From Agaribacillus aureus (GTDB lineage Bacteria; Bacteroidota; Bacteroidia; Cytophagales; Cyclobacteriaceae), in NCBI GenBank assembly GCA_030442055.1, contig JAUJEB010000001.1, forward strand, positions 2,852,001 to 2,916,000: a stretch of DNA of 64,000 nt. The letters are read 5' to 3'. The notes below the pieces were generated by a model. That model did no database searches. It was not told where the DNA came from and saw only the letters and a program-made list of their open reading frames with translations. Made by a program: the position numbers and the translations under genes. Shown in pieces: positions 37,720 to 60,604 of the stretch (the first letter of the stretch is position 1; the number at the start of each line of letters is the position of its first letter).

Positions 37720-37750
37720 AAATTATACATTTTAGTTCCTATGGAAGCAT

Positions 37751-37791
37751 AAAGTAACTACTTGTTTTGCACGCAAAAGTGCTTTTACTTT
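37751..37791. promoter_or_regulatory. Candidate HxlR operator: nested palindromes
   Basis: In the gap between the divergent hxlR-type and DUF3291 genes. Inner palindrome TTTTGC-AC-GCAAAA (37765-37778) is perfect over 6 bp per arm. Outer arms AAAGTAA (37751-37757) and TTACTTT (37785-37791) are also complementary. HxlR dimers bind two-fold symmetric sites, so this is the most likely operator. Assignment is by position and symmetry only. Confidence 0.45.
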
Positions 37792-37822
37792 ACCTCATCG
37801 AATTTAATCATTTTCCTTATCA

Positions 37823-38269
37823 ATGTATCACCTGGCTCAATTGAATATCGGCAAATTACGCTATCCTATAGATCACCCTGAAGTTGCGGAATTTGCTGAT
37901 AATCTGGACAAAATTAATGCTTTAGCTGAAGGCAGTAAAGGTTTTGTATGGCGCCTGAAAGATGAATCCGGTAATGCCACCGGCATCAAAGCTTTTGACG
38001 ATCCTATGATTATTGTCAATATGTCGGTATGGGATACCCTGGAAAATTTGAAGGCATTTGTATACAAATCCGGGCACATAGATTTTCTAAAAAAACGTAA
38101 CCTATGGTTTGAAAATCCGGCTTCAGCTCACATGGTGCTGTGGTGGATTAAAAAAGGGTATATTCCGACCGTGCAAGAGGCCAGACTAAGACTAAAAGAG
38201 CTGGACAACATTGGTGAAAGCCCGGCTGCATTCACCTTCAAAAAAACATTTGTGCCCCCGGAAAAATAA
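37823..38269 (+). CDS. DUF3291 domain protein
   Basis: 148 aa. Opens YHLAQLNIGKLRYPIDHPEVAEFADNLDKIN and contains GFVWRLKDESGNATGIKAFDDP and SVWDTLENLKAFVYKSGHIDFLKKR, the full DUF3291 pattern, a ferredoxin-like fold related to antibiotic-biosynthesis monooxygenases. Enzymatic role unproven. Divergent from the HxlR regulator, which suggests induction by electrophiles or oxidants if that regulator is redox responsive. ATG start. Confidence 0.85.
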   Translation: MYHLAQLNIGKLRYPIDHPEVAEFADNLDKINALAEGSKGFVWRLKDESGNATGIKAFDDPMIIVNMSVWDTLENLKAFVYKSGHIDFLKKRNLWFENPASAHMVLWWIKKGYIPTVQEARLRLKELDNIGESPAAFTFKKTFVPPEK

Positions 38270-38429
38270 TCCCTCTGCGCATAATCGCTAAATATTCTTT
38301 TCAGGTAATAAACTAATTGACAAATTGTTATTATTTTAAAGATAAATTTCAAGTCCCATTAGTACGGTTTAATGATCTATATCAGGTAACATTAAATGGC
38401 CATCTTTATCCATTTTAATTAAAAAATTA

Positions 38430-39233
38430 ATGTCGACAACTACAGAAGTAAACCCAGGGGCATTTCAGGCTTTTCCGAAAACCACTGTAAGGAAAATACT
38501 CTCCAAGACCTATTCCCGTCTGAAACAAGGAGAATTCCGGGGAATCGCAAACGGACTCATTGCCGACAGTTCCAACCTAATCAATCAACGAAAAAAGACG
38601 CCCAGGTTTCATTGCAATTTATGCCAGAGTGACCAAGCCTACCTCGTGCACCTATCCAACCGGCTGAGAATAAAATGGTATTCTGTATGCCCTACCTGTA
38701 ATTCCAGACCGCGACACCGGGGTTTGAAGATCTTGTACGAGGAGATTTTGGAGAAACTAGAGCAACCAAAGGTTATCCATTTCGCTCCGGAACCGGTTTT
38801 TTATCAAATATTTGAGGGCTTGTCGTCAAATTATCAGACCACCGATTTTTTCCTTGAGGATGTCACTTTTCCAAAAGAGGACATCCAGGCCTTGAGTTTT
38901 CCTTCGGAAAGTTATGATATGGCACTTTGTAATCATGTGATCGAACATGTACCTGATGATGCCTGTGCCGTATCGGAAGTAGCCAGGATCCTTAAGAAAA
39001 CAGGCCTCGCTATCTTCACCATTCCCGGCAACTGGAATCGACAAAAAACAATTCCTTTTAAAGACCTACGGTTTAACGGTCATTACAGGGACTATGGCAT
39101 GGATGCAGTGGCACTGTTTTCACAATTCTTCGAAAAGGTGGAGGTCAAAGATCTGGCTGATTACAATCTTCAACTTAAGCTTCCGCTAGGTATATCAAAA
39201 AAAACCAATCTGGCATTCATTTGTAAAAAGTGA
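38430..39233 (+). CDS. SAM-dependent methyltransferase with N-terminal zinc ribbon
   Basis: 267 aa. A zinc-ribbon-like segment (C62, C65, C87, C90: HCNLC and SVCPTC) precedes a class I methyltransferase domain in which FPSESYDMALCNHVIEHVPDD and AVSEVARILKKTGLAIFTIP match the Methyltransf_11 late motifs. The glycine-rich SAM loop is degenerate (VIHFAPEPVFYQIF), as in several glycan- or lipid-modifying relatives. Substrate unknown. Stand-alone gene, ATG start. Confidence 0.75.
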   Translation: MSTTTEVNPGAFQAFPKTTVRKILSKTYSRLKQGEFRGIANGLIADSSNLINQRKKTPRFHCNLCQSDQAYLVHLSNRLRIKWYSVCPTCNSRPRHRGLKILYEEILEKLEQPKVIHFAPEPVFYQIFEGLSSNYQTTDFFLEDVTFPKEDIQALSFPSESYDMALCNHVIEHVPDDACAVSEVARILKKTGLAIFTIPGNWNRQKTIPFKDLRFNGHYRDYGMDAVALFSQFFEKVEVKDLADYNLQLKLPLGISKKTNLAFICKK

Positions 39234-41668: not shown

Positions 41669-42490
41669 TTAAGATATTTTCCTGAAAATTTTATTATCGA
41701 GATCGTAAAATTCAAACTTTGACTTATCAATAATGGGAACCAGGGAATCGAAAAAGCCAATGATCAAAAATCCCCCTGGCTTTAGATTTCTGTAAAACTT
41801 GTCCAGTACCAGCTGTTTGGCGCCCATATCAAAGTAAATCATCACATTTCTGCAAAATACGATGTCATATTGTTGGTTATTAATATCTGTAATAAGGTTA
41901 CTCATTTCAAATCTCACATACTGCGTTAATGTGGGATCCATATGCCCATATTTGTCATCTTCGCTGTAATACCACCTGAAGGAACCGGTATTGTTATATT
42001 CATTGTAATTTTGTTCGTATTCATTCAGCTTGAGCAAATGATAAATACCTTTTTTCGCATCCTCCAGGGCTGCCGTATTCATATCGGTAGCATAGGATCT
42101 TGCCTTTTCCTGCAAGGCCAATTCCCGAAGAATAATATTAAAGGTATAAACCTCTTCCCCGCTTGAACAGCCGGCATGCCAAATATCCAGGTCGCCTTTT
42201 TCGGTGATCATTTCCGGCAACATCTTTTTCATCTTTATCCAGAACTTCGGATCCCTGAACATGGCTGTTAGTCCCACGGACATCTCATTGACAAACAAAG
42301 TCACAAAACCTGTATCGCGAAGAATCTTCGCCCACAATTCGTGAACAGAGCTCAGGTTAAATACCGACAAGGCTCTCACAATTCTTCTTTTTAACGACTT
42401 GGGCTCATAGCAGACAAAATCTATTCCATACCGCTGCCTGATGGCTGCAGTAAGTGAATTCAACTCCTCATCCGAAATCTCAACATTCAT
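41669..42490 (-). CDS. cheR: CheR chemoreceptor methyltransferase, cluster 1
   Basis: 273 aa. N-terminal helical domain ends with VGLTAMFRDPKFW; the SAM motif WHAGCSSGEEVYTF (104-117) and FCRNVMIYFD are family signatures. It should add methyl groups to receptor glutamates, opposing CheB. Located between the CheC-like gene and the TerB-like gene. The paralog at 56264 has the same length and the same motifs. Confidence 0.96.
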   Translation of the reverse strand: MNVEISDEELNSLTAAIRQRYGIDFVCYEPKSLKRRIVRALSVFNLSSVHELWAKILRDTGFVTLFVNEMSVGLTAMFRDPKFWIKMKKMLPEMITEKGDLDIWHAGCSSGEEVYTFNIILRELALQEKARSYATDMNTAALEDAKKGIYHLLKLNEYEQNYNEYNNTGSFRWYYSEDDKYGHMDPTLTQYVRFEMSNLITDINNQQYDIVFCRNVMIYFDMGAKQLVLDKFYRNLKPGGFLIIGFFDSLVPIIDKSKFEFYDLDNKIFRKIS

Positions 42491-42515: not shown

Positions 42516-43094
42516 TTACTTATTAATCATTGAAAGTAACTTCTTATCCATTTTCCAAATAAACACAGGAGAGATCATTCCATGGTTTTCAAAAATAAAA
42601 TTAGAACGTGCTAAAAAGTAGTAATCATCATTTCCTTCTCTTATAGCATTGTGGAATTCTCTGATATTATCCACTTGAAAGAGTCGGGGCACATCGCCAT
42701 GGATTCTAATATTGAGGGCATTTGACAGTTCCGTGATCACTGAAGCCGAAATAATATTGTCAATCTCCTTTAATATAATAGTCTCTTCCAGGGAGGTGGA
42801 GCTGGCAAAGGCGACCAGGCTCATGTTAGAAATGACCCTTCTCTCCTCCGCATTAAAAATCAGGTAACCAGCCCCGTCGAGCTGCCCTACAACATCCGTC
42901 TGCACAACTGTCAGATCTTTTAAATGGCCGAAATTTTCAATAAGATAATTGTGATCCGTGCAAAGATCAAAATCCGCGTTTTCTATGCTTATATTTTGAC
43001 CTGTTAAAGAAGAAAAAGAATTAGCTGCACGCTTATATCCCAGGTTGATGATTTCTGCGATTAATTTTTTTTCTGTTATACCTATTGGTTGCAT
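42516..43094 (-). CDS. cheC: CheC-like CheY-P phosphatase, cluster 1
   Basis: 192 aa, matching CheC length. The second half holds a correct phosphatase site: E110-I-D-N113, with P136 exactly 22 residues after N113. The first half has E14-I-I-N17, but the matching position is Ala instead of Pro, so that site is degenerate. The usual Asp/Ser four residues before the Glu is missing in both. In Bacillus CheC removes phosphate from CheY and regulates CheD; both partners are in this operon. A CheX-like assignment is less likely because of the two-fold repeat. Confidence 0.82.
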   Translation of the reverse strand: MQPIGITEKKLIAEIINLGYKRAANSFSSLTGQNISIENADFDLCTDHNYLIENFGHLKDLTVVQTDVVGQLDGAGYLIFNAEERRVISNMSLVAFASSTSLEETIILKEIDNIISASVITELSNALNIRIHGDVPRLFQVDNIREFHNAIREGNDDYYFLARSNFIFENHGMISPVFIWKMDKKLLSMINK

Positions 43095-43107: not shown

Positions 43108-45000
43108 TTAATGGTGAGACATTGCATTTTTATTGGAAAAGCTTTTGGCAAAAACCATATTGCAAATGGCTGCCACGTTAAAAACCAGGCATACGTGGCC
43201 ATTACCCATAATGGTAACACCACTTATGATCTTTACCTGATCTATCGGTTTCATGAGCGGTTTTTCAACAATTTCTTTTTGTTGTAACAGTTTATCCACC
43301 ACAAAACCAATGGTACGATCGTTATAGGAAACAATAACAATGTCCAGCTTTTCCCCAGGGTCCAGGTGATCATAACTGTGATGAAGTACTTTTTTATCGT
43401 AGACAGATTCGCCGGCCTTTAAGGCAAACAGGTCGCTCAAAAAAACTACTGAAATCGTATTGCCAAGATAAGTGGCGATTAGTCCATTACTTACCTTATG
43501 AATATCCGGTTTGTAAAGAGAGACCACGGCTTCGGTATAAGACAGAGGGATGGCATATGTTTCTTTGTCTAATTCAAACAACAATGTTCCCTTTACAGCC
43601 ATGGAAGAAGGCAAACGAAGTGAGAAGGTCGATCCAATCCCCGGTTCAGTGCGAACTGACACGTTCCCCCCAATAGAATCCAGGGCTTTTTTGACAACGT
43701 CCATCCCTACCCCTCGTCCCGATATGGCGGTAACCTGATCCATGGTACTGAACCCGGGTTCAAAAATCATCAGTATGATATCATTATCAGCCATATGTCT
43801 GGCGTCTTCCGTTGAGATCAGGCCTTGTTTAATGGCCTTTTCCCTCACCTTTGCCGCATCAATCCCGCGGCCATCATCTTTAATTTCAATAATGACTGCG
43901 TCACTTTCACTAAAGGCACTCAGTGTAATACTGCCTTCTTCCGGCTTTCCGGCTTTTTTCCGCTCCTCCGGTGTTTCCACGCCGTGGCCAATCGCATTTC
44001 TAATCAGGTGGATCAAAGAATCACTGATAATTTGCAGGATGTTTCTATCAATTTCCGTCTCGGTACCTTCCAGGTTAAGGGTCACCTTCTTTTTTTCGTG
44101 GCTGGCTGCGTCTCTTACCACCCGGTGAAACTTGTTGAAGAGAAATCCTACCTGTACCAAACGAACGTCCATTACCGAATACTGCAAGTCCGAAGATATC
44201 CGGTTTAGCCTGGCGTATTCGTTCGCATTTATTCTGGCGGAGTTGGCGGAAATGATACGATCCCTTTCAATTACCAATTCCCCTACCAAATTGAGCAGGT
44301 TATCCAATTTTCTTACCGGAACCTGAACCAGGTCTGAAAATGCAATTTTAGTATCATCAACCTGATCAAGGTTTTCTACCCCGGGGTCAACTTTTTCGGC
44401 GACAGATTCGGCAGGCACGTTTTTCGTCTTTTCAGCTGACTTTTTATCGATAACTGCCTTTCCTTGAGATACCGGTTTCCGCTTGCTGCTCCTGGTGGGT
44501 GTCACCTTTGCCTTCTTGTTACCTTTGGAAGTCGCACCTCTTTTCGGTTTGGGAGCCGGCTGCTGAAGTTTCTCTTCGAGAGGTTTTTCTGCTGTCGCCT
44601 TATCCTGACCTTCCTGCTGCACCGATTTCAGCATTACTTCCAGTTTGGTTTTGATCCCTCTGAATGATACTTTGCCATCATCTTTTACAGCATTTATCAG
44701 CGCCCCCAAAACATCTATGGCCTTAAAGAGGCTGCCAAACATATCGTCATCCAATGACAACTTTCCATCCCTTACTTCTCCAAAAAGATCTTCCAACACA
44801 TGAGCAAAATCCGCTACATTTTTAAAGCCCATACCTGCAGCATTTCCCTTGAGCGTATGGGTAATGCGAAAGATGGCGTTAACGGACTTTGTGTCACCAG
44901 GTTTTTTCTCCAATACAGTCATCAGACGATTGAGCTCCTCATGGTTTTCCAGAGCTTCGGCAAGAAAGATTTCTTTATATTCCTGATCTTTAGACTTCAT
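43108..45000 (-). CDS. cheA: CheA histidine kinase, cluster 1
   Basis: 630 aa. HPt domain with phospho-His H48 (FRITHTLKGNAAGMGF). Then a long Lys/Pro/Thr linker (about 128-215) where a P2 CheY-binding domain would be; none is seen. Dimerisation domain (LDNLLNLVGELVIERDRI, about 231-285). HATPase with N-box HLIRNAIGHGVE (331-342), G1 DDGRGID and GRGVGMDVV. C-terminal CheW-like domain. The N-box has Gly (338) where most CheA proteins have Asp. No receiver domain. The kinase gene follows cheB and precedes the CheC-like gene. Confidence 0.96.
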   Translation of the reverse strand: MKSKDQEYKEIFLAEALENHEELNRLMTVLEKKPGDTKSVNAIFRITHTLKGNAAGMGFKNVADFAHVLEDLFGEVRDGKLSLDDDMFGSLFKAIDVLGALINAVKDDGKVSFRGIKTKLEVMLKSVQQEGQDKATAEKPLEEKLQQPAPKPKRGATSKGNKKAKVTPTRSSKRKPVSQGKAVIDKKSAEKTKNVPAESVAEKVDPGVENLDQVDDTKIAFSDLVQVPVRKLDNLLNLVGELVIERDRIISANSARINANEYARLNRISSDLQYSVMDVRLVQVGFLFNKFHRVVRDAASHEKKKVTLNLEGTETEIDRNILQIISDSLIHLIRNAIGHGVETPEERKKAGKPEEGSITLSAFSESDAVIIEIKDDGRGIDAAKVREKAIKQGLISTEDARHMADNDIILMIFEPGFSTMDQVTAISGRGVGMDVVKKALDSIGGNVSVRTEPGIGSTFSLRLPSSMAVKGTLLFELDKETYAIPLSYTEAVVSLYKPDIHKVSNGLIATYLGNTISVVFLSDLFALKAGESVYDKKVLHHSYDHLDPGEKLDIVIVSYNDRTIGFVVDKLLQQKEIVEKPLMKPIDQVKIISGVTIMGNGHVCLVFNVAAICNMVFAKSFSNKNAMSHH

Positions 45001-45033: not shown

Positions 45034-46068
45034 TTAGAAACAACTCACGATAAATCCCGGTATCACTCCGAGCTTCATGACGTGACCGGCGGCGCCGATA
45101 TCGACAGAAGCCTGTGGCATGCCGTTTACCACACAGGATTTGCCTTCCTGGGCTACGGTGAGCCCTCCTTTTTTCTTTATTTGCAGCAATCCCTGGCTGC
45201 CATCTTTACCCATGCCCGTAAGTATTACACCAATGGCTTTGGCCCCATATAAACTTGCAATTGATTCAAACATGCAATCAATGGAGGGATGGTTAAATTC
45301 CTTGTACTCTTTTTTTGTGTATTGAAAGTGCGGATTCCCGTGCCTATTGGCCTTCACCATCATGTTTCCATCTCCCGGGGCGATGTAAATTGTTCCGGGT
45401 GTCAGTTCTTCACAATGTGTGGCCAATTTTACCTTCAGCGGTAAAATCGAGCTCAGTCGTTCGGTATACGATGTCAGGAAACGTTTTGGCATGTGTTGGA
45501 CGATCACGACGGGAATTGCCAGATTGCTGGGCAATTGGGCTAAAATAGATTCTATCGCACTGGGGCCTCCGGTGGAGGCGCCAATAGTCAATACCTCATA
45601 CTGAAGCACACCATCAAATGAGTGAAAATGGTGATTGGTTTTATCTACCACTTTACCCAACACATCTGAATTTAACGCCACCGCAGCCCTTATTCTTTGT
45701 TTTAACGTACCCAAAGCCCCTTTAAAATCATCAGCATCTTTTGTCTGCGGTTTGTCGACAAAGTCAAAAGCCCCGGCATTGAGCGCGTCGAATATCTCCG
45801 GGTTGGCCCTGTCCAGCGAACTCAGCAAAATAATTGGCGTGGGTGAGTCCTTCATAATATTTTTTACAGCATATAACCCGTCATATTCCGGCATTATCAT
45901 GTCAGTAACAACTACGTCAGGATGCAAGGCTCTAACTTTCCGGACACCCTCCCAGCCATTATTGGCCGTACCAATCACCTCAATCTCCGGATCTGATCGC
46001 AATGAGTCTGATATCATAATGCGCATAAGACCCGAGTCCTCTATTAAAAGTGTTTTAATTTTTTCCAC
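45034..46068 (-). CDS. cheB: CheB receptor methylesterase/deamidase with receiver domain, cluster 1
   Basis: 344 aa. Receiver domain (1-125) with phospho-Asp D56 (VVVTDMIMPEYDG). C-terminal esterase with catalytic S165 (IGASTGGP), H192 (QHMPKRF) and D289 (LTGMGKDG). It removes methyl groups from the receptor when phosphorylated by CheA. The start is GTG at 46068, the same codon as in the paralog. Lies 12 bp after cheY. Confidence 0.96.
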   Translation of the reverse strand: MEKIKTLLIEDSGLMRIMISDSLRSDPEIEVIGTANNGWEGVRKVRALHPDVVVTDMIMPEYDGLYAVKNIMKDSPTPIILLSSLDRANPEIFDALNAGAFDFVDKPQTKDADDFKGALGTLKQRIRAAVALNSDVLGKVVDKTNHHFHSFDGVLQYEVLTIGASTGGPSAIESILAQLPSNLAIPVVIVQHMPKRFLTSYTERLSSILPLKVKLATHCEELTPGTIYIAPGDGNMMVKANRHGNPHFQYTKKEYKEFNHPSIDCMFESIASLYGAKAIGVILTGMGKDGSQGLLQIKKKGGLTVAQEGKSCVVNGMPQASVDIGAAGHVMKLGVIPGFIVSCF

Positions 46069-46080: not shown

Positions 46081-46437
46081 TTAGACCTTAGCCAAAGCCA
46101 CCATCAGCTTATCCGGGGTAAACGGTTTAACTATATAATCAAGAGCGCCCAGACTCATCCCTTCATTAATCACCGAATCCTGACCTACAGCACTTATCAT
46201 AATCACCTTAGAGGATAACCCCTCTTCTTTAAACACCTTTAATATATCGGTACCGATCATATCCGGAAGAATATTATCCAGCGTAATGATATCAGGTATC
46301 AACTCGAAGGCAAGATCAATGGCTTCCTCCCCGTTAGCAGCTTCTCCAATGACGTTAAATCCATTTTCGCTCAATGCATCTTTAATTAAAGTACGCATAT
46401 AAAGCGAATCATCCACGATTAAAACATTTTTGCTCAT
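46081..46437 (-). CDS. cheY: CheY single-domain response regulator, cluster 1
   Basis: 118 aa from the ATG at 46437; a longer frame start is not supported by the paralog, which also has 118 aa. Acidic pair D9/D10, phospho-Asp D54 (ITLDNILPD), S82 at the Thr/Ser switch position and K104 are all present. Only 11 residues differ from the CheY of cluster 2. The output partner is unknown; in a gliding bacterium it may be a motility or secretion component rather than a flagellar switch. Confidence 0.95.
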   Translation of the reverse strand: MSKNVLIVDDSLYMRTLIKDALSENGFNVIGEAANGEEAIDLAFELIPDIITLDNILPDMIGTDILKVFKEEGLSSKVIMISAVGQDSVINEGMSLGALDYIVKPFTPDKLMVALAKV

Positions 46438-46450
46438 TTTATTTTTTTTA

Positions 46451-46924
46451 TTAAATGGTATAATAATTTTTCCTTGCATTGTTTACGGACAATATGCCAC
46501 TCTCCACATCTAATCTGGCAGTGCGACTTTTTGTACCACCTGTATCTTCCGAGCTAACAACTATCCCTTTTTTCCTTAATTCTTTCTTTACGTATATAGT
46601 ATTGCGGTACCCAATTCTGTAGGCATGCAGGTTTAATATATTGGCGCCACCCACTAATCTGGCCCTAATAGTGAGGCGGTGGCAGCCCTTATCCAACATC
46701 CCATTAATAATATCATCAAGCATTTGATCGCTTTTGTGCTCTTCGCCATTACCCGGAGATAAGATATGGGCTCCCGCTCCGACTTTTTGAAATTTATCAT
46801 ATAGAAATACCCCAAGGCAAGACCCTAAGCCGTAACAAACAATTTCTCCCGGAGCCGCACAAACAACGGTTTCTCCAATGTTTAAGGCGTGTAGACCATA
46901 TTTCGAATTAGTTTGTGCCAACAC
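46451..46924 (-). CDS. cheD: CheD receptor glutamine deamidase, cluster 1
   Basis: 157 aa. Catalytic Cys in YGLGSCLGVFLYD (C36) and His in GAGAHILSPG (H53), the CheD pattern. CheD deamidates receptor glutamines and, in Bacillus, is sequestered by CheC; both proteins are encoded here. The start is GTG at 46924, overlapping the cheW stop by 17 bp, so translation is coupled. Confidence 0.95.
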   Translation of the reverse strand: MLAQTNSKYGLHALNIGETVVCAAPGEIVCYGLGSCLGVFLYDKFQKVGAGAHILSPGNGEEHKSDQMLDDIINGMLDKGCHRLTIRARLVGGANILNLHAYRIGYRNTIYVKKELRKKGIVVSSEDTGGTKSRTARLDVESGILSVNNARKNYYTI

Positions 46925-47450
46925 CCGCTGAGTTTACCGTTTCCAATTCCTGTTCATTAAGCACCTTGAAAATATCAATGAGTATAATCAGCTTACCTTT
47001 AAGCTTTACAATACCCTGAATGTAGTCCGAATTTACGCTGTTGTCGTGAACAACATTAACAGAATGTTCCATATCGGCCGGGTTTACCGAGAGGGTATTG
47101 GGCACTTCTTTGACCAATATTCCTACTTTAAATTCATCGCTTTCCACCACCAAAGTGTAGTTGCTTTCCCGATTGGCTTGTTCCGTAGTTGTTGCTTCCT
47201 TGATACCAAATTTCTCTTCCAGATCAATGATCCCGATAATGTTGCCCCTGATATTGGCGACACCTTTTACATAACCAGGTGTTTGAGGCATTTTAGTAAT
47301 ATTCGGAGTGAGTACTACCTCTTTAATCTGATCTATATACAGGCCGTACTCTTCCTCGCCCAGGCGGAACACAATCAATTGTTGTGTTTCTGTCGATTGT
47401 TGCTCCGTTGCCGCGGTCTTGTCTGTATTTAATTCAATTTTATCTGACAT
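46908..47450 (-). CDS. cheW: CheW coupling protein, cluster 1
   Basis: 180 aa. The two SH3-like subdomains of CheW carry VFRLGEEEYGLYIDQIKEVV, GVANIRGNIIGIIDLEEKFG and VKLKGKLIILIDIFKVL. It joins the receptor to CheA. The N-terminal 25 residues are a Thr/Gln-rich tail. Starts 23 bp after the receptor stop; its end overlaps cheD. Confidence 0.95.
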   Translation of the reverse strand: MSDKIELNTDKTAATEQQSTETQQLIVFRLGEEEYGLYIDQIKEVVLTPNITKMPQTPGYVKGVANIRGNIIGIIDLEEKFGIKEATTTEQANRESNYTLVVESDEFKVGILVKEVPNTLSVNPADMEHSVNVVHDNSVNSDYIQGIVKLKGKLIILIDIFKVLNEQELETVNSAGVGTN

Positions 47451-47473: not shown

Positions 47474-50467
47474 CTACTTCTTTTTAAGTTTAAACTGGTT
47501 GACTCCCGACTGGAGCTTGGTGGCGATGTTGGACAGTTGTGTACTGGCTGCGGAAATATCCTCCATGGCACTGTCAAGTTCCTGGGAGCTACTTGCCACC
47601 TCCTGAGTACCCGCAGCAGTTTCTTCTGCAACAACCACTATTTGCTCTATATTTTTCACCACTTTATCGATAGATTGTTTCTGGCCGCCGGAGGCTTCCT
47701 GAATCTCCTGTGAATAGGTAAATGTTTCCTCGCTGGAGCTGGCAATTTCCTGGAAGATTGTCTCAGCTTCCGAGGAAGCTGTACTGCCCTGCTTAACACT
47801 GCCTTCCATGGTTTCAATAGCTTTACTGGCAGCCTGCGTATCCTTTTGCACATCTCCGATAATTTTTTCAATGTCCACGGCGGATTTGCGAGAGTCTTCT
47901 GCCAGCTTTCTGATCTCTTCGGCGACTACTGCAAACCCTCTTCCTGCCTCACCTGCCCTGGCCGCTTCGATAGCAGCGTTCAGCGCCAGCAGATTGGTTT
48001 GTGCCGCGATATCGGTGATTACGTTCAGCGTCCTGGCTATCTCATCTGCGCGCTCGGTCAATACTTTAATCGAATCGGACGTCAGATTGGCTGAAGAACC
48101 TATTCCATCCATATTCTCCACCAGCGCCTTGATGATTTTCAAACCACTTTCAGAACTTTTCTTGCCATTTTCAGCGGCCTTATTGATAAGGTTGGCCTTT
48201 TTCTCCATCTCCGCCGACGATTGCATGACCTCCTCGGCCAAGGTTGAGGATTCATCGGTCTTGGCAGCCTGATCCTGCGCTCCCTTCGACATTTGTGATA
48301 TGGCCGAGGCTACCTCCTTGGTGTTACTCTTCATAGCCTTACTCCTATTCATCATACTTCCGGCAGAGTCGGCCACCTGCTGCGCACTTTCATCAATGGT
48401 GCCAAGCAAGCTGTTGAGGTTTTCCATGGCTTCATTTAACGCCTCACCCATGTCCTTCACATAACCCTCAGCAGCCATATCAAACCTGCTGGTCAGATCT
48501 CCCTGGGCCATTTCATTGATGATCTCATTTACAGCCAATATGGGCAGTTTCACCTGTGAAATATCCATGGCATACTTTATTATTTTAGTTGGTTTCCCAT
48601 CCAAGTCCAATATGGGATTGTAAGAGGCCATAAACCAAAGTTCCTTTCCGTTTTTGTGGAACCGCTTGATTTCCCCTGACTCATAGTGCCCCTCATTTAA
48701 TTTCCTCCAAAACGCCTTGTATTCCTGACTATTTTTGTGGGAATCCTCCACAAACATGCTATGATGGTTACCTTGCAACTCCTCAAGTGTATAACCTGTT
48801 GCTTTCATAAAATTTTCATTGGCCGTAATAATGGTACCATCCAGATTGAATTCTATCACAGCCTGATTTGCACTGATGGAGTTTAATATATTGCTGAGTT
48901 CGGCAGCCTGTTCTTTCTGCCTGGTAATATCTTTAATAAAGGCCGTATATTGTAGATCCTCCACAACCTGAACTTTACTCAGGGATAGATTACCCCAAAA
49001 TTTGGAGCCATCTTTACGGGTCATTTCCAGGTCCCGGCCTTGCCCTACCACTTTGTTGATACCCGTGGCTATATTGGACTCCACATAGTTGTCGTGATTG
49101 CCACGATGCTCCATCGGTACGATCATTTTTACGTTCTGCCCCATGACCTCCTCACGGGTATAGCCGAACATTCGCTCTGCGGCGCTGTTATAAAAAGTAA
49201 TAATTTTATCAGCGTTGATAGTCACCACCGAATCAACCGCTTGCTCCAATATCTGAACGTTGGTTTCCCTAAGCTTTATTTCTTCTGAAATATCCTTGAT
49301 AAAGGCCGTATATTGCAGATCCTCGCCAATCTGAACTTTGCTCAGGGATAGATTGCCCCAAAACATAGAACCATCTTTACGGGTCATTTCCAGGTCTCGC
49401 CCTTTCCCTACTACTTTGTTGATACCAGTGGCTATATTGGACTCCACATAATTATCGTGATTGCCACGATGCTCCATTGGTACGATCATTTTTACATTCT
49501 GCCCCATGACCTCCTCACGGGTGTAGCCAAACATCCGCTCTGCGGCGCTATTATAAAAGGTAATAATTTTATCAGCGTTGATCGTTACCACCGAATCAAC
49601 CGCCTGTTCCAATATTTGAATAGTGGTTTCCCTTAACCTTACCTCTTCGCTAATATCTTTAATAAAGGCAGTATATTGCAGTTCATGCCCAACCTGGACT
49701 TTGCTCAGGGATAAATTACCCCAAAATTTGGAGCCGTCTTTGCGGACCATTTCCAGGTCGCGACCTTTCCCTACCACTTTATTTACACCAGTAGTCATAT
49801 TGGCTTCTACATAGTTATCGTGGTTGCCCCGGTGTTCTAAAGGGACAATCATTTTTACATTTTTACCTATAACTTCCTGCCTGGTATAGCCGAACATTCG
49901 CTCTGCTGCGTTATTGTAAAAGGTAATTTCCTTATTGGCATTGATGGTCACGACAGAGTCAACTGCCTGTTCCAGTATTTCCAGCACATTGCCTTGTTCA
50001 TTGCCGACTAATCCAACTGTTTTGTTTCCGGCTTTGGTGCTTCCATTTCCATTAGTTGTTATCATTTTATTGTCTTTTTCATTTGCATTTTTCCCCAATA
50101 CATCGTGTTGTGTTTTCTTGGCAACTGCCAAAGCTGCATTTCTTAAAGTCTTTGGCACTTTTAATTCTGTTAGTGTAGATTCCAGGTGGCCTATAACCGC
50201 GTCAAAGTGGTCTTTGTTTAATCCTTTCGCATCCAGATGCGCATGTGCCTCACGCAGATTTTTACCAGAATATTTTACAGCTCCCCCTAATGCTTTGGCC
50301 AAAAAAGCTTTTTGTTTCCCCTTTTGTTGCTCCCAATCAGTTCCGGCAAAAAAATGATTAATACTTTCATCAGCCATTACCTTCTCGTAGAAAATCTCCA
50401 CGGCTGCATCGACCGCCTTTTTGCCGCCTAGCTGCTGGTATATGGTCTTTTCTTGTACCTCTTTCAT
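47474..50467 (-). CDS. Soluble chemoreceptor: truncated hemoglobin, three FixL-like PAS, BdlA-like PAS, HAMP, MCP
   Basis: 997 aa with no membrane segment. Residues 7-127 are a group I truncated hemoglobin ([35 protein letters not shown]) with proximal F8 His H75. Residues 164-514 hold three near-identical PAS domains, each with R-G-N-H-D-N-Y. The His (H216, H337, H458) and an Arg 20 residues later (R236, R357, R478) match H200 and R220 of Bradyrhizobium FixL, so each may bind heme b. A fourth PAS (about 525-640) is of the GxHHxxF class. A HAMP-like unit (about 641-700) leads into the methyl-accepting domain with the hairpin tip [22 protein letters not shown]. First chemosensory gene of the operon, 6 nt after hemA. 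Confidence 0.9.
48926..49978 (-). repeat. Three tandem 363-bp PAS-coding repeats in receptor 1
   Basis: Successive units of 121 codons (residues 164-284, 285-405, 406 to about 514) align without gaps at the protein level, and long nucleotide stretches are identical at a 363-bp offset (for example around 49080 and 49443). Units 2 and 3 are closest to each other, indicating recent duplication of unit 2 or 3. Confidence 0.92.
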
Positions 50468-50473: not shown

Positions 50474-51757
50474 TTATTTTAGATCTAATATTTCCTGTGA
50501 TCTGATGTCATCAAAGTCGTGCAGTTTTTTAATAAGGTCGAAGGTTATGGCCGGCTGATGGGATACGTGTGCTGTTTTCCTCATATGTCTAAATGGCTGG
50601 CTGGAAATTTGTCGAATTAATTTGTGTGAAAATTTTCTGATCAGCCGCCGTTGATTTTCATCCATATCGCCAAGTTTAGGCATTAGCCAATCCAGCTCTT
50701 TGTCCTTGATGCCCTGCAACTTGTTCCAGTAAGCCTTGTAAACAGGGCTCCACTTCCTTTCCATGAAGGACCGGATAATAAACTCCAGTTTCCTTTCTAT
50801 GCACGCTTGTACAGCCGGAATTTCCTCCTTACGCAAATCAATATTTTTGGACCTAAAGTCAATCAGCGTATCCAAATCAACATGATCCACATTCCCCCCA
50901 TTTAATGCCTCAGGATTGAAATTTCTTGGGATCCCAAGATCAACGATTAAGGTGGTTTTCGGATTGACCACCAATTGCTCTCTCAAACACGACGGTCCCC
51001 CCGGTTGAGGAGCAGGAAAATCGATTTCTTTATGGGTGCCGGCAACGATCACATCAACCCTGGGCAATAAATACTCCAGGTCATCCATGTTAACAGGAGC
51101 AAAACCTTTGCGTTTGGCAAAACTTATCGCCCGTTCATATTGATGACTTGCTATCAGCACCTCCCTAAATTTTGAGGTGCTCAACAAATTGCCGACCAAT
51201 TCCGACATTTTACCAGTACCTATCAGTAATACTGACAAATCGCTCAAATCATTAAATTTTTCTTTGATCAGATTAAATGCCAATGCTGCATATGATGTGA
51301 CATGATCGCTGATCCTGGTGCTTCTTCTGACTTCTCTGCCGAGCGACAAACCTTCTCGGATCAACATATCCAAATTTTGCCCCAGCGATTGCTCTTTCAG
51401 GGCGATCTGATAATGTTTTTTTATTTGTCCCAGGATCTCGTACTCACCAATAATCCTGGATTTAATGCCTGCTGCTGTTGCAAGGAAATTGTGGATGGCG
51501 GCACGAGAGGAGGCAAACTCCTGCACAAACTCCGCGAATAGTTTTAACTCTGGAATAACATGATAAATATCCCGGACGTCTTTCGCTAAAAAATAGATGG
51601 CAAATCTGTTGCACGTAGAAACTATAAAGCTTTCCCTAATTCCGTTGTTTATGAGTCTTTTTAGAAAGGATGGTGTATCCCGAAATTTCATAGCAATCTC
51701 TCCCCCGGTAGCCAGACTGGCGCGACTATAATCAATCTCAATGCAATTTAATTTCAT
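50474..51757 (-). CDS. hemA: Divergent glutamyl-tRNA reductase (HemA), first gene of chemosensory operon 1
   Basis: 427 aa from the ATG at 51757; upstream codons in the frame give an unusual N-terminus. Catalytic Cys in IVSTCNRF (C49). Active-site segment IIGEYEILGQIKKHY, NADPH fold LLIGTGKMSELVGNLL, VIVAGTHKEI and VDLGIPRNFNPEA all fit glutamyl-tRNA reductase, which makes glutamate semialdehyde for tetrapyrroles. The N-terminal substrate segment (usually SHKTAP...RE) is strongly changed here. The stop lies 6 nt before the globin receptor, so both share one mRNA. It may be a second hemA copy serving the heme sensor, or a repurposed paralog. Confidence 0.83.
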   Translation of the reverse strand: MKLNCIEIDYSRASLATGGEIAMKFRDTPSFLKRLINNGIRESFIVSTCNRFAIYFLAKDVRDIYHVIPELKLFAEFVQEFASSRAAIHNFLATAAGIKSRIIGEYEILGQIKKHYQIALKEQSLGQNLDMLIREGLSLGREVRRSTRISDHVTSYAALAFNLIKEKFNDLSDLSVLLIGTGKMSELVGNLLSTSKFREVLIASHQYERAISFAKRKGFAPVNMDDLEYLLPRVDVIVAGTHKEIDFPAPQPGGPSCLREQLVVNPKTTLIVDLGIPRNFNPEALNGGNVDHVDLDTLIDFRSKNIDLRKEEIPAVQACIERKLEFIIRSFMERKWSPVYKAYWNKLQGIKDKELDWLMPKLGDMDENQRRLIRKFSHKLIRQISSQPFRHMRKTAHVSHQPAITFDLIKKLHDFDDIRSQEILDLK

Positions 51758-52861
51758 GTGACTCGCATTTACTTTATACTGGTGACCTTGAAACCAGAAT
51801 TTTTTTAGCATTACACCGAGACTCCCAGTCATAAAGATCCTTTTGTCACATCTTTACCGAGCCGGTGACCTATTCATATTATATGTCATCAAGAGATAAG
51901 CGACAGGTTTAAACGCGGGCCTATTCGTTTCCCTGGTTTAGCCTTGTCATTTTAGCTGGCAGTAAGACTTTTATTTACCTGTTCCCCACTGGCCGGGTAA
52001 ATGAAAGCATAGCTGATTTACCTCGTATTTGATAGATCAAATGTATTGTGATTACAGTGATAAGTATTCCCAATATGGATATGAACAAAATGAATGTAAT
52101 ATCTCCCGTGAATCAAATTTCAACTTCGATTATCGACATTATCGAACTTTAGGTGTTTTTACGGATAGGTAACAGGCGCTAATCCATAGGGCTAAAGGTA
52201 GCTGTCGAAAAATTGGCCTCATTCATTTTTCAATTCATTTCACGCTTAAACCAAAACTTTTTGAATAGGAATAAATCTTGGACAAAACATTAAAATCCAG
52301 CTATTAGTATATTTCAACCGCTTAATCAGTCCCATTGGAAACAATACCTGAGATCGCCGAAAATTGTTGTTAGTCAGTGCGTAAAGTTAAATTCGAGTGG
52401 TTGACTCACGCTTGCTCATCTATCAAATTTCTGTTATTAGTGAAGGAGGGCCGTTATGCAAAACTACCTAACGGAGGTAGGTATTAATACCTGGTAATAA
52501 AATCCATATTTTCATTGGGTTCCGAAAATATTTAAGCAACAATTCTTGTAAACATCTCATCATCAATGCCTTAATTTCTTTAGGCTGTCAAAATTGTATC
52601 TATTTTTCTCATCATATAGCCTTTCCTGGCTGGTATATACGATACGATGGGACAAAAGCAAAAAAAACCGGGCGCTCTGAATGATCACCCGGGTTTTCTC
52701 AATAAAATACATTATTGAATCATAAATTGCTGCACTTGCTTGGGAGGGGTTGACATTGATATGTTTTAAAAATTCAAATCAAGGTGGTCCCCATTTCATA
52801 TTAGTGTTAAGTTAACCATAACACTAGCAAATTATCTTCCTATATCGCCAAATAAGCGATT
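51758..52861. other. 1.1-kb intergenic region upstream of the hemA/chemosensory operon
   Basis: No supported gene. On the minus strand, TACATTTG (52038-52045) matches the TAnnTTTG -7 box, about 280 nt before hemA. An inverted repeat ATTTACC/GGTAAAT (51973-52002) falls in the predicted hemA leader. At 52464-52492 lie CTACCT/AGGTAG and a perfect 14-bp palindrome AGGTATTAATACCT. TAGTGTTA/TAACACTA (52802-52826) follows the PAS gene stop. A plus-strand 13-codon frame at 52456 has GGAGG before it but no further support. Confidence 0.5.
52656..52697 (-). terminator. Rho-independent terminator after the GAF/PAS membrane protein
   Basis: On the minus strand, AAAACC/GGTTTT plus GGG/CCC (with one bulged C) close a hairpin at 52664-52697, followed by a U-rich tract (A-run at 52656-52663). 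About 165 nt beyond the stop of the PAS gene. Confidence 0.65.
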
Positions 52862-55851: not shown

Positions 55852-55872
55852 TGATGGGTATCTTCCCCATCA
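55852..55872 (-). terminator. Weak hairpin at the end of chemosensory operon 2
   Basis: TGATGGG (55852-55858) / CCCATCA (55866-55872), 7-bp stem with a 7-nt loop, overlapping the stop codon of the TerB-like gene. On the minus strand it is followed by TTAAAACG, not a proper U-tract. It may attenuate rather than stop transcription into the PAS gene. Confidence 0.4.
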
Positions 55873-56253
55873 GGAGGCTTCCAGCAGCCACCTGTCAATG
55901 GTGTTGTCAAAAGATTCCCGGTCCAATTCCTGGTCGGCATATGCTTCTACTGCCCCTGAGTCGTAACCAAGCTTGGTGGCAATTTCCTTACAAAATTCAA
56001 GTTCTCTTTTATCAATGATATGATCCGCCTTCATAAGTTTGATCGCCAGGAAAAGCATTTCTTTTTTATCATCAATCAGGTGCACATCATGTGTCTGTTC
56101 GCCAGCCGCCACAAGAATTCTAAAGTCTTTGACATTAAATCCTTCTTCGATAACAAATTCTTCCAGCAACGCCCTTTCAGCTTTATGAAATTTGCCATCT
56201 ATTTTAGCGAGATGGATAAGCAGGTTCAATTTGCGTTTGGTATATTCATTCAT
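55870..56253 (-). CDS. TerB-like protein, chemosensory operon 2
   Basis: 127 aa from the ATG at 56253; the longer frame overlaps cheR and lacks a homologous counterpart. Same two acidic-helix repeats as the cluster 1 copy (HLAKIDGKFHKAERALL; LMKADHIIDKRELEFCKEI) and the shared string LIDDKKEMLFLA. Central loop and C-terminus differ. Last gene of the cluster, 10 bp after cheR. Confidence 0.8.
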   Translation of the reverse strand: MNEYTKRKLNLLIHLAKIDGKFHKAERALLEEFVIEEGFNVKDFRILVAAGEQTHDVHLIDDKKEMLFLAIKLMKADHIIDKRELEFCKEIATKLGYDSGAVEAYADQELDRESFDNTIDRWLLEAS

Positions 56254-56263
56254 AACGATATGT

Positions 56264-57085
56264 TTAAGGTATTTTTCTGAAAATTTTATTGTTGAGATCG
56301 TAAAATTCAAACTTTGATTTATTAATAACCGGCACCAGTGAATCGAAAAAACCAATGACCAATAACCCTCCGGGCCTCAGGTTGTTATAAAATTTGTCCA
56401 GTACCAATTGCTTGGCTCCAGCGTCAAAATAGATCATAACATTCCGGCAAAAGATGATATCATATTTTCCATCATTTGTATTGGTAATCAAGTTGCTAAT
56501 CTCAAAAATTACGTTTTCGATCAGCTTTGTATCCATATGTCCATATTTGCCTTTTCTCTCATAATATTGACTGAGGGAGCCATTGTTTCTAAAATTGCCG
56601 TAATTGTGTTCGTATTCATCGAGCTTAAGGATGTGATAAATACCTTTTTCTGCCTGCTCAACGGCGGCGGTATTCATATCTGTGGCATAGGATCTCACTT
56701 TTTCCTGCAGCGCCAGCTCTCGCAGGATAATGTTGAAAGTATAAACTTCTTCACCGCTTGAACATCCGGCATGCCAAACGTTAAGCCGCCCATTTTCCGA
56801 TATCATTTCAGGCAGGATCTCTCTCAGCTTTATCCAGAATCTAGGATCCCTGAACATGGCCGTTAATCCTACGGACAATTCATTAATAAACAGACTTATA
56901 AAGTCTCTATCCCGAAGAATTTTTATCCAAAGTTCATGGACCGAATTGAGATTAAACACAGAAAGTGCTCTGACAACCCTTCTTGTCAAAGATTTAGGTT
57001 CGTAGCAAGTAAAATCTATGCCGTGTCTTTTTCTGATCGCCGCCGTCAGTGAATTCAGTTCTTCGTTTGAAATCTCAATTTTCAT
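56264..57085 (-). CDS. cheR: CheR chemoreceptor methyltransferase, cluster 2
   Basis: 273 aa, same length as the cluster 1 copy. SAM motif WHAGCSSGEEVYTF at 104-117 and FCRNVMIYFD are kept; VGLTAMFRDPRFW closes the N-terminal domain. Differences from the other copy are spread through the protein, mostly on the surface. Should methylate receptor 2 and perhaps receptor 1 as well, since their signalling halves are nearly the same. Confidence 0.96.
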   Translation of the reverse strand: MKIEISNEELNSLTAAIRKRHGIDFTCYEPKSLTRRVVRALSVFNLNSVHELWIKILRDRDFISLFINELSVGLTAMFRDPRFWIKLREILPEMISENGRLNVWHAGCSSGEEVYTFNIILRELALQEKVRSYATDMNTAAVEQAEKGIYHILKLDEYEHNYGNFRNNGSLSQYYERKGKYGHMDTKLIENVIFEISNLITNTNDGKYDIIFCRNVMIYFDAGAKQLVLDKFYNNLRPGGLLVIGFFDSLVPVINKSKFEFYDLNNKIFRKIP

Positions 57086-57111
57086 CAGTTACGATTTTAG
57101 AATATAATGGC

Positions 57112-57690
57112 TTACGCGTTAATCATTGACAAAAACTTCTTATCCATTTTCCAGATAAAAATAGGAGAGATCATCACGTGATTTTCAAAAATAAAATTGG
57201 AACGCGCCAGTAAATAATAATCGCCGTCACCCTCTTTCATGGCGCTATAAAATTCTTTGATATCCTCTGTTTCAAAGAGATGCGGCACATCACCATATAT
57301 ATTCACATTAAGCGCGTTTGACAGTTCCGTGATGACTGAGGCTGATATAATATTATCAATTTCCTTCAGTATCGCCGTGTCATCAATCGATATCGAACCT
57401 CCGGACGCAGCCAGGCTCATGTGAGAGACTGCCCGTTTTTCCTCCTCATTAAATATCAAGTAACTGGACCCACCCAGCTGTCCGATAACATCGGTCTGCA
57501 CAATGGTCAGGTTTTTTAAATGATCAAAATTATCAACCAGGTAGTCATGATTTGTGCAGATATCAAAACCGGCGTTTTCCGTTCTAATATTTTGACCTGT
57601 CAGCATAGAAAAGGAAGTGGCAGCCTGCCTGTATCCCGTATTGATAATTTCCGCTATTATTTTTTTTTCTTTAGTACCTATCGATTCCAT
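57112..57690 (-). CDS. cheC: CheC-like CheY-P phosphatase, cluster 2
   Basis: 192 aa, aligned without gaps to the cluster 1 copy. Second-site motif E110-I-D-N113 with P136 is kept; first site E14-I-I-N17 again lacks the Pro. So both paralogs retain only one complete site. Starts 13 bp after cheA. Confidence 0.82.
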   Translation of the reverse strand: MESIGTKEKKIIAEIINTGYRQAATSFSMLTGQNIRTENAGFDICTNHDYLVDNFDHLKNLTIVQTDVIGQLGGSSYLIFNEEEKRAVSHMSLAASGGSISIDDTAILKEIDNIISASVITELSNALNVNIYGDVPHLFETEDIKEFYSAMKEGDGDYYLLARSNFIFENHVMISPIFIWKMDKKFLSMINA

Positions 57691-57703
57691 CTATTTTCAA
57701 AGA

Positions 57704-59536
57704 TTATTGGTAAGACATCATATTTTTACTGGAGAAATTTTTGGTAAAAATCATATTGCAAATGGCCGCAACATTGAAAACAAGACAAACGTGGCCATTG
57801 CCCATAATGGTGACACCGCTAATAATCTTCACCCTGTCCATGGGTTTCATGAGTGGTTTTTCTACTATCTCCTTCTGCTGCAAAAGTTTATCCACCACAA
57901 AACCAATTGTACGACCATTGTAGGAGACAATGATGATGTCCAGCTTTTTTTGAGGATCCAGGTCATCGAAACTGCGATGGAGCACTTTGTCCTGGTAAAC
58001 CGATTCCCAGTTTTTCAAAGCAAACAGGTCCTGGAGAAAGACCACAGAAATAGTTTTATCCAAATAAGTGGCCACAAGCCCATTGCTTACCTTGTGCAGG
58101 TCGGGTTTATACAACGATACTACCGCCTCGGTATAAGCTAAGGGGATAGCATATGTTTCCGCCCCTAATTCAAACAGTAAGGTTCCCTTTACTGCCATAG
58201 AAGAAGGCAATCGAAGAGAAAAGGTAGTTCCTTTGCCCAATTCGGCATGAACGGAGACATTACCTCCTATGGAATCCAGGGCTTTTTTGACAACATCCAT
58301 CCCTACGCCGCGGCCGGATATGGAAGTAACCTGATCCATGGTACTGAATCCCGGCTCAAAAATCATCAGGATGGCATCATTGTCAGACATTTGCCTGGCA
58401 TCCTCCGCCGAAATGAGGCCTTTCTTAATAGCTTTATCTCTCACCGCCGCTGCGTCAATACCTGTGCCATCATCTTTAATTTCAATGATAACTGCATCGC
58501 TTTCGCTGAAAGCGCTGAGAACTATCCTGCCTTCTTCGGGTTTCCCTGCCTTCTTTCGCTCATCAGGTGTTTCTATGCCATGCCCCACGGCATTCCTTAT
58601 CAGGTGGATTAAAGAATCACTGATGATCTGCAGAATGTTCCTGTCTATTTCGGTGTCTGTTCCTTTCAAATTGAGGGATACCTTTTTCCCCTCCAGACTG
58701 GCAGCATCCCTGGCTACCCTGTGAAATTTATTAAAGAGAAACCCAACCTGTACGAGTCGCACATCCATTACCGAATACTGCAGGTCAGAGGATACCCGAT
58801 TCAGCCTTGCGTATTCATTGGAATCCATATTCCCTGCGTTGACCGCGATAATACGATCTCTTTCAATCACCAGCTCGCCTACGAGGTTGAGCAAATTGTC
58901 CAGCTTACGCACCGGTACTTGCACGAGGTCCGAAAATGTCATTTTGGTATCCGGGGCTTCCTGTGTATTTTCTCCCTCTTCAACCATTTTGGCATGGTGG
59001 TCGGGTACAGATTTTTTTTCGCTTTTCAAATCGGCGGCCGGTCGCCTGGCTTTACTGACTTTCTTAGCGGGTTTTTGTTTAGGCTTGGTGGCTGATCGGG
59101 CCGTTTTATTTTCAATGGGCTTATCTTCTTTTTTTGTCGATGCAGTTTCCTGCCGGACCGATTTCAGCAGCACTTCAAGCTTGGTTTTTATACCCCTGAA
59201 CTGTACTTTGCCATCGTCTTTAATTGCATTTATCAACGCCCCCAGCACGTCGACGGCTTTAAAAAGATTAGTGAAAATGGCGTCATCCAAAGCCAGATTT
59301 CCATCTCTTACTTCACCAAAAAAGTCTTCCAGTACATGCGCAAAATCTGCTACGTTTTGAAATCCCATCCCAGCTGCATTCCCTTTGAGGGTATGCGTAA
59401 TACGGAAAATGGCATTGACCGATTTTGTATCGTCGGATTTTTTCTCGAGCAGTGTCAACAACCGGTTAAGCTCTTCGTGGTTTTCAAGTGCCTCGGCCAG
59501 AAAAATTTCTTTGTATTCCTGATCTTTTGACTTCAT
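57704..59536 (-). CDS. cheA: CheA histidine kinase, cluster 2
   Basis: 610 aa. HPt with H48 in FRITHTLKGNAAGMGF; a Lys-rich linker about 20 residues shorter than in the other copy and without P2; dimerisation, HATPase (HLIRNAVGHGIE, DDGTGID, GRGVGMDVV) and CheW-like domains. The N-box again has Gly where Asp is usual. The catalytic and CheW-like parts are highly similar to cluster 1; the linker is the most diverged part. Confidence 0.96.
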   Translation of the reverse strand: MKSKDQEYKEIFLAEALENHEELNRLLTLLEKKSDDTKSVNAIFRITHTLKGNAAGMGFQNVADFAHVLEDFFGEVRDGNLALDDAIFTNLFKAVDVLGALINAIKDDGKVQFRGIKTKLEVLLKSVRQETASTKKEDKPIENKTARSATKPKQKPAKKVSKARRPAADLKSEKKSVPDHHAKMVEEGENTQEAPDTKMTFSDLVQVPVRKLDNLLNLVGELVIERDRIIAVNAGNMDSNEYARLNRVSSDLQYSVMDVRLVQVGFLFNKFHRVARDAASLEGKKVSLNLKGTDTEIDRNILQIISDSLIHLIRNAVGHGIETPDERKKAGKPEEGRIVLSAFSESDAVIIEIKDDGTGIDAAAVRDKAIKKGLISAEDARQMSDNDAILMIFEPGFSTMDQVTSISGRGVGMDVVKKALDSIGGNVSVHAELGKGTTFSLRLPSSMAVKGTLLFELGAETYAIPLAYTEAVVSLYKPDLHKVSNGLVATYLDKTISVVFLQDLFALKNWESVYQDKVLHRSFDDLDPQKKLDIIIVSYNGRTIGFVVDKLLQQKEIVEKPLMKPMDRVKIISGVTIMGNGHVCLVFNVAAICNMIFTKNFSSKNMMSYQ

Positions 59537-59569
59537 GCATCAAACTGTTTAGTAAATATTCGATTTCAT

Positions 59570-60604
59570 TCAAAAACAACTCATTACAAATCCCGGGATT
59601 TCGGCCAGCTCCACGACGTAATCTGCAGCTCCTATTTTAACAGCGGCACTTGGCATACCATTGACTACACACGATTTGGGTCCTTGTGCAATTGTAAGCC
59701 CTCCATTTTTCTTAATTTGTAACAAACCCTCACTGCCATCTTTGCCCATGCCGGTAAGTATTACGCCAATGGCTTTAGAGCCGTAAAAACTGGCAACAGA
59801 CTCAAACATGCAGTCCACAGATGGGTGGTTAAATTGCCTGTATATTTTTCTGCAGTAGCGAAAAACCGGGTTACCTTCCCTGTCGGCCTTAATCATCATA
59901 TTGCCATCGCCCGGCGCTACATAAATTATCCCAGGCGCTAGTTTTTCACCTCGTCTCGCCAATTTCACTTTCAAAGGCAAAAGTGTCGCCAGCCGGCTGG
60001 TGTAGGACTCCAAAAATCGATGCGGCATATGCTGGACTATGACAACCGGGATAGCGAGATTTCCGGGTAATTGCGTTAAGACAGATTCTATGGCATTGGG
60101 CCCTCCGGTAGAAGATCCAACCACCAGGATATCGTATTGTAATATGCTTCCAAATGTATGAAAATGATGATTGGTCTTTTCAACCTGCTTCCCCAATACC
60201 CTGGAATTCAACCCGTTTGCCGCTTTAATTCTTTCCTTTAATTTTGTCAATACCGCTTTAAAGTCATCCTTATTTTTTGTCTGGGGCTTATCGACAAAAT
60301 CAAATGCCCCTGCGTTCAGCGCATCGAATACCTCCGCATTGGCTCTATCGAGCGAACTCAACAGAATAATCGGCAAAGGTGACTTTTTCATGATGTTTTT
60401 CACCGCATACAAGCCGTCATAATCAGGCATAATCATATCAGTGATGACAACATCAGGATGCAAATGCTGAACCTTTTGGACCCCTTCCTTACCGTTTTTG
60501 GCGGTGCCAACCAGCTCAATTTCAGGATCGGACGTTAACAAATCGGATATTAACAAACGCATAAAAACCGAGTCTTCGATCAAGAGTGTTTTAATTTTCC
60601 CCAC
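59570..60604 (-). CDS. cheB: CheB receptor methylesterase/deamidase, cluster 2
   Basis: 344 aa, GTG start. Receiver D56 (VVITDMIMPDYDG); esterase S165 (VGSSTGGP), H192 (QHMPHRF) and the Asp in LTGMGKDG. Same length and residue numbering as the other copy. Twelve bp after cheY. Confidence 0.96.
   Translation of the reverse strand: MGKIKTLLIEDSVFMRLLISDLLTSDPEIELVGTAKNGKEGVQKVQHLHPDVVITDMIMPDYDGLYAVKNIMKKSPLPIILLSSLDRANAEVFDALNAGAFDFVDKPQTKNKDDFKAVLTKLKERIKAANGLNSRVLGKQVEKTNHHFHTFGSILQYDILVVGSSTGGPNAIESVLTQLPGNLAIPVVIVQHMPHRFLESYTSRLATLLPLKVKLARRGEKLAPGIIYVAPGDGNMMIKADREGNPVFRYCRKIYRQFNHPSVDCMFESVASFYGSKAIGVILTGMGKDGSEGLLQIKKNGGLTIAQGPKSCVVNGMPSAAVKIGAADYVVELAEIPGFVMSCF

Follow-up and report, generated by a model that had tools for sequence, protein, structure and literature searches.

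Can a bacterial chemoreceptor read oxygen through a truncated hemoglobin and a row of heme-binding PAS domains in one polypeptide? The question is raised by a gene in the window that we analyzed, a stretch of 64,000 nucleotides from Agaribacillus aureus (GenBank assembly GCA_030442055.1, contig JAUJEB010000001.1, forward-strand positions 2,852,001 to 2,916,000; all coordinates below are positions in this window unless a locus is named). An earlier note had read the gene as encoding a soluble receptor in which a truncated hemoglobin (trHb) is fused to three FixL-like PAS domains and a methyl-accepting chemotaxis protein (MCP) domain. Our analysis argues that the protein is a cytoplasmic chemoreceptor of the Che pathway and that it detects a diatomic gas, with O2 the likeliest (or else NO or CO), by means of up to four b-type hemes, a reading to which we give a probability of about 0.68.

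Domain architecture of the receptor

The receptor gene (47474-50467, minus strand, like its domains and the hemA and che genes next to it) is an uninterrupted open reading frame of 997 amino acids, and a Pfam domain search agrees with the trHb, the three FixL-like PAS domains, and the MCP domain of the earlier note. Bac_globin (PF01152) matches residues 8-123 (E 1.7e-18, 67.4 bits, cut-off 21), and Pfam and alignment together place a group I truncated hemoglobin domain at residues 8-126 (50090-50446), with the H75 codon at 50243-50245. Four PAS stretches score above the cut-off (PAS_9, E 1.5e-59). PAS1 (residues 164-274, 49646-49978) carries H216 (codon 49820-49822) and R236 (49760-49762), PAS2 (285-395, 49283-49615) carries H337 (49457-49459) and R357 (49397-49399), and PAS3 (406-516, 48920-49252) carries H458 (49094-49096) and R478 (49034-49036). 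These residues lie where the earlier note had put them, with 20 residues between His and Arg in all three units; its count of three holds for the His...Arg type, and it had overlooked the fourth domain, PAS4 (about 533-639, 48551-48871), from which the HDxY...R motif is absent. A HAMP-like stretch (639-685, 48413-48553; a HAMP_2 match under the Pfam cut-off) leads to the MCP signaling domain (763-944, 47636-48181; MCPsignal PF00015, E 2.2e-40, 138.7 bits, above cut-off), which contains the conserved hairpin tip motif. The signaling output lies C-terminal to the globin, as in globin-coupled sensors. We regard this domain architecture as certain.

The protein was proposed to be soluble, and no membrane helix is predicted in it or expected, because the highest 19-residue Kyte-Doolittle mean is only 1.01 and falls inside the MCP domain. 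An assembly or frame artefact is ruled out by the recurrence of the fusion in two other genera (genomes G126 and G976). Such an artefact is also countered by a genome of the same genus (G009), where an 88-residue frame (L185:10276-10587) consists of a remnant of hemA, the gene that adjoins the receptor gene in A. aureus, run into a PAS remnant; on one of its sides, the contig with this frame matches the window (35682-39231), an indication that G009 once had the cluster and lost it.

Three PAS domains of the FixL/DosP type

Residues 1-285, as modeled by AlphaFold, give a gap-free alignment with both FixL, where H216 falls on residue 200 and R236 on 220, and DosP, where they fall on 77 and 97; the equivalence to FixL drawn earlier from spacing holds, and the DosP equivalents join it. 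The hallmarks of the FixL/DosP type, an F-alpha His and a strand-G Arg, are found in PAS1 by structure and in PAS2 and PAS3 by motif. All 13 PDB sequences that PAS1 matches at E <= 1e-10 are DosP or FixL, a list that leaves room for an unlisted PAS family, and PAS1 matches E. coli DosP (best E 6e-26) more closely than it does FixL (best E 4e-20). In ferrous DosP, a distal Met is a heme ligand. The residues aligned with this Met, which we take to be M95, are K234, K355, and Q476, so the hemes are predicted to be five-coordinate as in FixL.

To assess conservation we used 59 rows of PAS domains of this type from the loci collected, or 52 once contained duplicates were removed. His and Arg are both present in 46 of these 52 rows, neither in 4, His only in 1, and Arg only in 1 (Fisher p 9e-5, indicative only, as the rows are related and were chosen by similarity). 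Where the His is missing (five rows), N203, Y219, T226, and R236 have each disappeared from four rows, whereas every row retains N185, L165, G193, and G245. In the three fusions, His and Arg are both present in each of the nine PAS units. Heme is likely both at the PAS sites and in the trHb.

PAS2 and PAS3 share 95% identity across 111 residues, so sequence does not predict different heme affinities. The wide sensing range for O2, NO, or redox state that the earlier note thought possible therefore looks weakly founded; the three PAS hemes of Vibrio vulnificus Aer2 are likewise described as similar in O2 affinity in the relevant passages of PMC13401364.

PAS4 raises another prospect, namely a receptor for redox state or energy taxis, dominated by a PAS4 that binds flavin adenine dinucleotide (FAD) and modulated by the heme domains. 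Its best PDB sequence matches are the FAD PAS chains 3ewk, of the MmoS type (presumably MmoS itself), and 8dik (Aer). The Trp aligned with these chains is kept. At the positions that we take to be theirs in the alignment, the other FAD contacts (a His and an Asn, in passages of PMC10468136) are not evidently kept. The receptor of a neighboring che cluster, with PAS domains but without a globin match, fits this alternative. Against it, the G126 fusion has three PAS stretches and HAMP_2 with no PAS4, and we consider a dominant flavin highly improbable.

A group I truncated hemoglobin

The globin domain has H75 at F8, Y27 at B10, Q48 at E7, K51 at E10, and Q52 at E11, where the helix names are those we take to apply. 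The closest solved sequences are cyanoglobins (1s69, E 9e-29) and the Tetrahymena trHb 3aq5, in which Y25, Q46, and Q50 align with Y27, Q48, and Q52. The domain shows the features of group I truncated hemoglobins (PF01152 above its curated cut-off, F8 His, B10 Tyr, and a 2-over-2 fold) and is not the 3-over-3 globin of globin-coupled sensors, as the earlier note had recognized in calling it truncated rather than myoglobin-like. In 52 rows of group I globins (50 different; 62 rows minus 10 with long branches or doubtful alignment, including two degenerate ones without the His), every row (52 of 52) has F8 His, B10 Tyr, E7 Gln, and E10 Lys; Gln occupies E11 in 47, Met in 4, and Leu in 1. F8 His is kept in the fusions of A. 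aureus, G126, and G976.

Points against gas sensing through heme

Several observations weigh against the proposed reading. In the AlphaFold model, the loop just ahead of R236 (230-233) has pLDDT < 50, so the exact position of the Arg gets no support from the model, and neither does coupling between globin and PAS1, because the linker between them (137-159, 161-168) is also below 50. E11 varies among the three fusions (Gln, Leu, and Met). The presence of a His predicts heme without proving it. No hemA gene lies alongside the G976 fusion, so the link to hemA is not universal.

Further evidence comes from two sister receptors missed at first reading, L173 (the second receptor of G976) and L174 (in G985), whose N-terminal domains align with the trHb at 32% and 31% identity, with Asp in place of the F8 His and Leu in place of the B10 Tyr. 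The L174 domain is still called a globin by Pfam (28.2 bits, cut-off 21). The L173 domain has no Pfam globin match at E <= 0.001; AlphaFold (mean pLDDT 75.7) and Foldseek give it a trHb fold, with the bias that the model alignment included holo-globins. Because both receptors keep the domain after losing F8 His and B10 Tyr, a trHb domain can evidently persist without heme. Each of the two MCP genes (L173:2197-6408 and L174:5381-8500) lies directly behind a ParA-like gene (the one in L173, which was scanned, matches AAA_31), and a ParA-like gene also precedes the PAS-MCP gene in L184.

Such degenerate globin domains would fit a receptor in which the trHb and PAS folds have no functional heme, serving a structural role or responding to another ligand or to protein contacts. 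Partial text of PMC7542364 describes ethanol binding by the HemAT globin domain without involvement of heme, and according to passages of PMC10468136, 40% of the FixL/DosP PAS cluster lacks the His. Yet His and Arg are present in 9/9 PAS units and F8 His in 3/3 fusions, and the pocket residues tend to vanish along with the His in the five rows above; we judge this explanation very unlikely.

The poorly modeled linker counts in favor of a different alternative, in which the PAS domains are the sole gas sensors and the trHb, a tethered gas handler, sends no signal but protects the PAS hemes or the array as an NO dioxygenase or by buffering O2. Such a role is consistent with the retained F8 His, B10 Tyr, and E7 Gln, and trHbN has NO dioxygenase activity. 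In addition, several MCPs of the family have the same PAS type in the same che context with no globin. Against this, Pfam finds no reductase domain in the receptor, and we think it unlikely that the globin only handles gas.

The fusion is rare but recurs

Globin and PAS share a frame in 3 of 390 genomes of the family: A. aureus itself, G126, and G976. The survey samples overlap, all survey counts are lower bounds, and the candidates scored per genome at first look numbered at most 6 for the family, 10 for the order, 6 for the phylum, and 8 for the phylum of a Methylobacter (G1087). When globins were sought separately in the family, 103 of 148 genomes had one, and in two (A. aureus and G126) the frame exceeded 900 residues. 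With the globin profile, a frame longer than 436 residues occurs only in A. aureus among 390 genomes of the order; the fusion occurs only in A. aureus among 395 genomes of the phylum; and no frame that combines a globin with this PAS type turned up in 299 genomes of the Methylobacter phylum. The survey of the phylum of G1091 comprised 5 genomes. Elsewhere, the best 80 of at least 514 confirmed globin loci contain no fusion (one of these 80, L076, ends at the globin), their largest globin frame being a tandem globin of 276 residues. The trHb-PAS-MCP fusion is thus rare, by these lower-bound counts.

The G126 protein (983 residues, 61% identical to the receptor) has the trHb, the three PAS domains, HAMP_2 above the cut-off, and the MCP domain. 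The G976 protein (1156 residues from the first Met) runs trHb, PAS4-like, three His...Arg PAS, PAS4-like, MCP. His and Arg are 20 residues apart in the three PAS units of each. The same PAS type without a globin is found in family MCPs (e.g., L175, L176, L182, L184, and L188), and in the sampled Methylobacter phylum there are MCPs that contain as many as three PAS domains of this kind. Another A. aureus frame (L170:3951-5417, 489 residues), histidine-kinase-like by reading, has two such PAS domains, one of them without His and Arg.

As to a single origin of the fusion, the three fused globins do not form one clade in free trees. A tree that joins them scores 2.83 log units above the free tree from a quick search, and the approximately unbiased test does not reject it (p-AU 0.55); nor does it reject one that joins only the A. 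aureus and G126 globins, which scores 8.15 log units above (p-AU 0.667). Yet the G976 globin also groups with the stand-alone globin of A. aureus (support 95.8), and the nine PAS units of the three fusions give no resolved tree.

Other long globin frames turned up in these searches. None of seven frames of 238-508 residues (in G132, G015, G100, G098, G092, G042, and G069) reads as containing PAS or MCP; two of them were domain-scanned, giving a 2Fe-2S ferredoxin-globin fusion (L024:134-1657, G132) and a SnoaL-like-globin fusion (L025:207-1445, G015), and the other five were judged by reading. L026-L030 look similar by reading. A 616-residue frame in G1336 has a globin at 497-616 and nothing recognized ahead of it with a small reference set; it probably stays open by chance. 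Two or three truncated hemoglobins stand in tandem in single frames at G428:C5:2370066-2371178, in G438:C21, G472:C6, and G490:C2, and at L077, L082, L095, and L132.

A hemA paralog and che genes surround the receptor

The genes next to the receptor stand in an operon-like order on the minus strand: hemA2, receptor, cheW, cheD, cheY, cheB, cheA, cheC-like, and cheR; the intervals between neighbors range from -29 to 33 bp. Pfam identifies cheW (46908-47450, 23 bp downstream of the receptor gene), cheD (46451-46924), cheY (46081-46479; Response_reg), cheB (45034-46068), and cheR (41669-42490); cheA (43108-45000) has Hpt, dimerisation, ATPase, and CheW-like domains, and the CheC match of the cheC-like gene (42516-43094) is under the cut-off.

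The hemA paralog (50474-51832), which the earlier note had also overlooked, lies 6 bp upstream of the receptor gene. It is probably a glutamyl-tRNA reductase, given its full-length similarity to 1gpj (E 1.2e-34 over 62-411), which we take to be a reductase of the Methanopyrus kandleri type, and its retained Cys (C74 in STCNR). After CNR it has FA where others have TE. It is one of two glutamyl-tRNA reductase genes in the genome; the higher-scoring copy is on another contig and is 20% identical to it, compared with 30% for the G126 operon copy. G126 also has two glutamyl-tRNA reductase genes and a hemA-receptor pair, here 1 bp apart, followed by cheW-D-Y-B-A-C.

A second, paralogous che cluster adjoins (55870-64000 of the window and L212:2013-5027). 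Its receptor, an open frame of 1005 residues that runs past the window end, is 90% identical (320/357) to the trHb-PAS-MCP receptor in its last 357 residues. In the genome, the gliding-motor gene GldM was detected and flagellar FlhA was not.

Relation to known sensors

The MCP-type globin-coupled sensors HemAT of B. subtilis and Atu1027 sense O2 directly via the proximal His (passages of PMC13401364 and PMC10851874). Their globin is of the 3-over-3 sensor type (part of PMC1457004), whereas here a group I truncated hemoglobin is followed by four PAS domains. Like this receptor, Aer2 has tandem heme-type PAS domains on a chemoreceptor (three PAS hemes in V. vulnificus, two PAS domains in V. cholerae; sections of PMC13401364), so three heme PAS domains on a chemoreceptor are no novelty by themselves. 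However, the Aer2 heme His lies at E-alpha (E-eta), and the Aer2 PAS domains form a separate cluster (PMC10468136); no globin is described for Aer2 in the text consulted. IcpB of Azorhizobium caulinodans is likewise a cytoplasmic chemoreceptor; compared by its description in part of PMC13401364, it has one N-terminal heme-binding PAS and a relatively simple domain composition. In E. coli DosP and rhizobial FixL, the PAS fold, F-alpha His, and strand-G Arg are placed as in the receptor, but the outputs, a cyclic-di-GMP enzyme and a histidine kinase, differ from its MCP domain; DosP PAS-B has no His at the heme-ligand position. Pseudomonadota MCPs have one to three DosP-like His...Arg PAS domains in tandem (three in L205:1773-3263), with no globin. 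The new elements are the trHb fusion and the FixL/DosP-type PAS triple on an MCP together with a trHb.

The earlier note knew of no described receptor with this architecture, and neither do the portions consulted of the open-licence literature searched describe a trHb-MCP fusion (PMC10468136, PMC8694187, PMC12805357, PMC1592074, PMC13401364, PMC1457004, and PMC10851874), which is weak evidence of absence. In the available text of a 2026 aerotaxis review (PMC13401364), the words "truncated", "FixL", and "gliding" occur 0 times. Excerpts of PMC1592074 list a "Globin" domain among signaling-helix contexts, citing a truncated-hemoglobin paper for it, and state that the signaling helix typically avoids MCP domains; the entry means that trHb fusions to other signaling domains may have been sighted before.

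A model for gas sensing

In the model that we favor, H75 of the trHb and H216, H337, and H458 of the PAS domains would ligate heme. O2 (or NO or CO) would bind the ferrous PAS hemes, and the strand-G Arg (R236, R357, and R478) would move toward this ligand, as it does in FixL and DosP. This change would travel down the PAS chain, through PAS4 and then the HAMP-like region, to the MCP hairpin and so alter CheA activity, with CheB, CheR, and CheD adapting the signal. On its flexible linker, the trHb may be a high-affinity O2 input or may condition the gas that reaches the PAS domains, and the adjacent hemA paralog may provide extra heme precursor while the operon is expressed. With GldM present and FlhA undetected, the output is likely to be aerotaxis by gliding or another Che-controlled behavior. 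A more elaborate version would equip the receptor with a gas filter and a heme supply of its own: at the array, the trHb would destroy NO or buffer O2, the three PAS hemes would report O2 free of NO interference, the operon hemA would serve all four sites, and gliding cells would be steered along O2 gradients. We consider this full scheme unlikely.

If gas sensing through these hemes is correct, globin-coupled chemoreception would extend from 3-over-3 sensor globins to truncated hemoglobins, which are mostly seen as stand-alone proteins, and the globin and PAS heme-sensor folds would be united in one receptor, with the ligand-less sister receptors as natural controls. The receptor would also offer a handle on possible oxygen sensing in non-flagellated, gliding bacteria of the Bacteroidota type.
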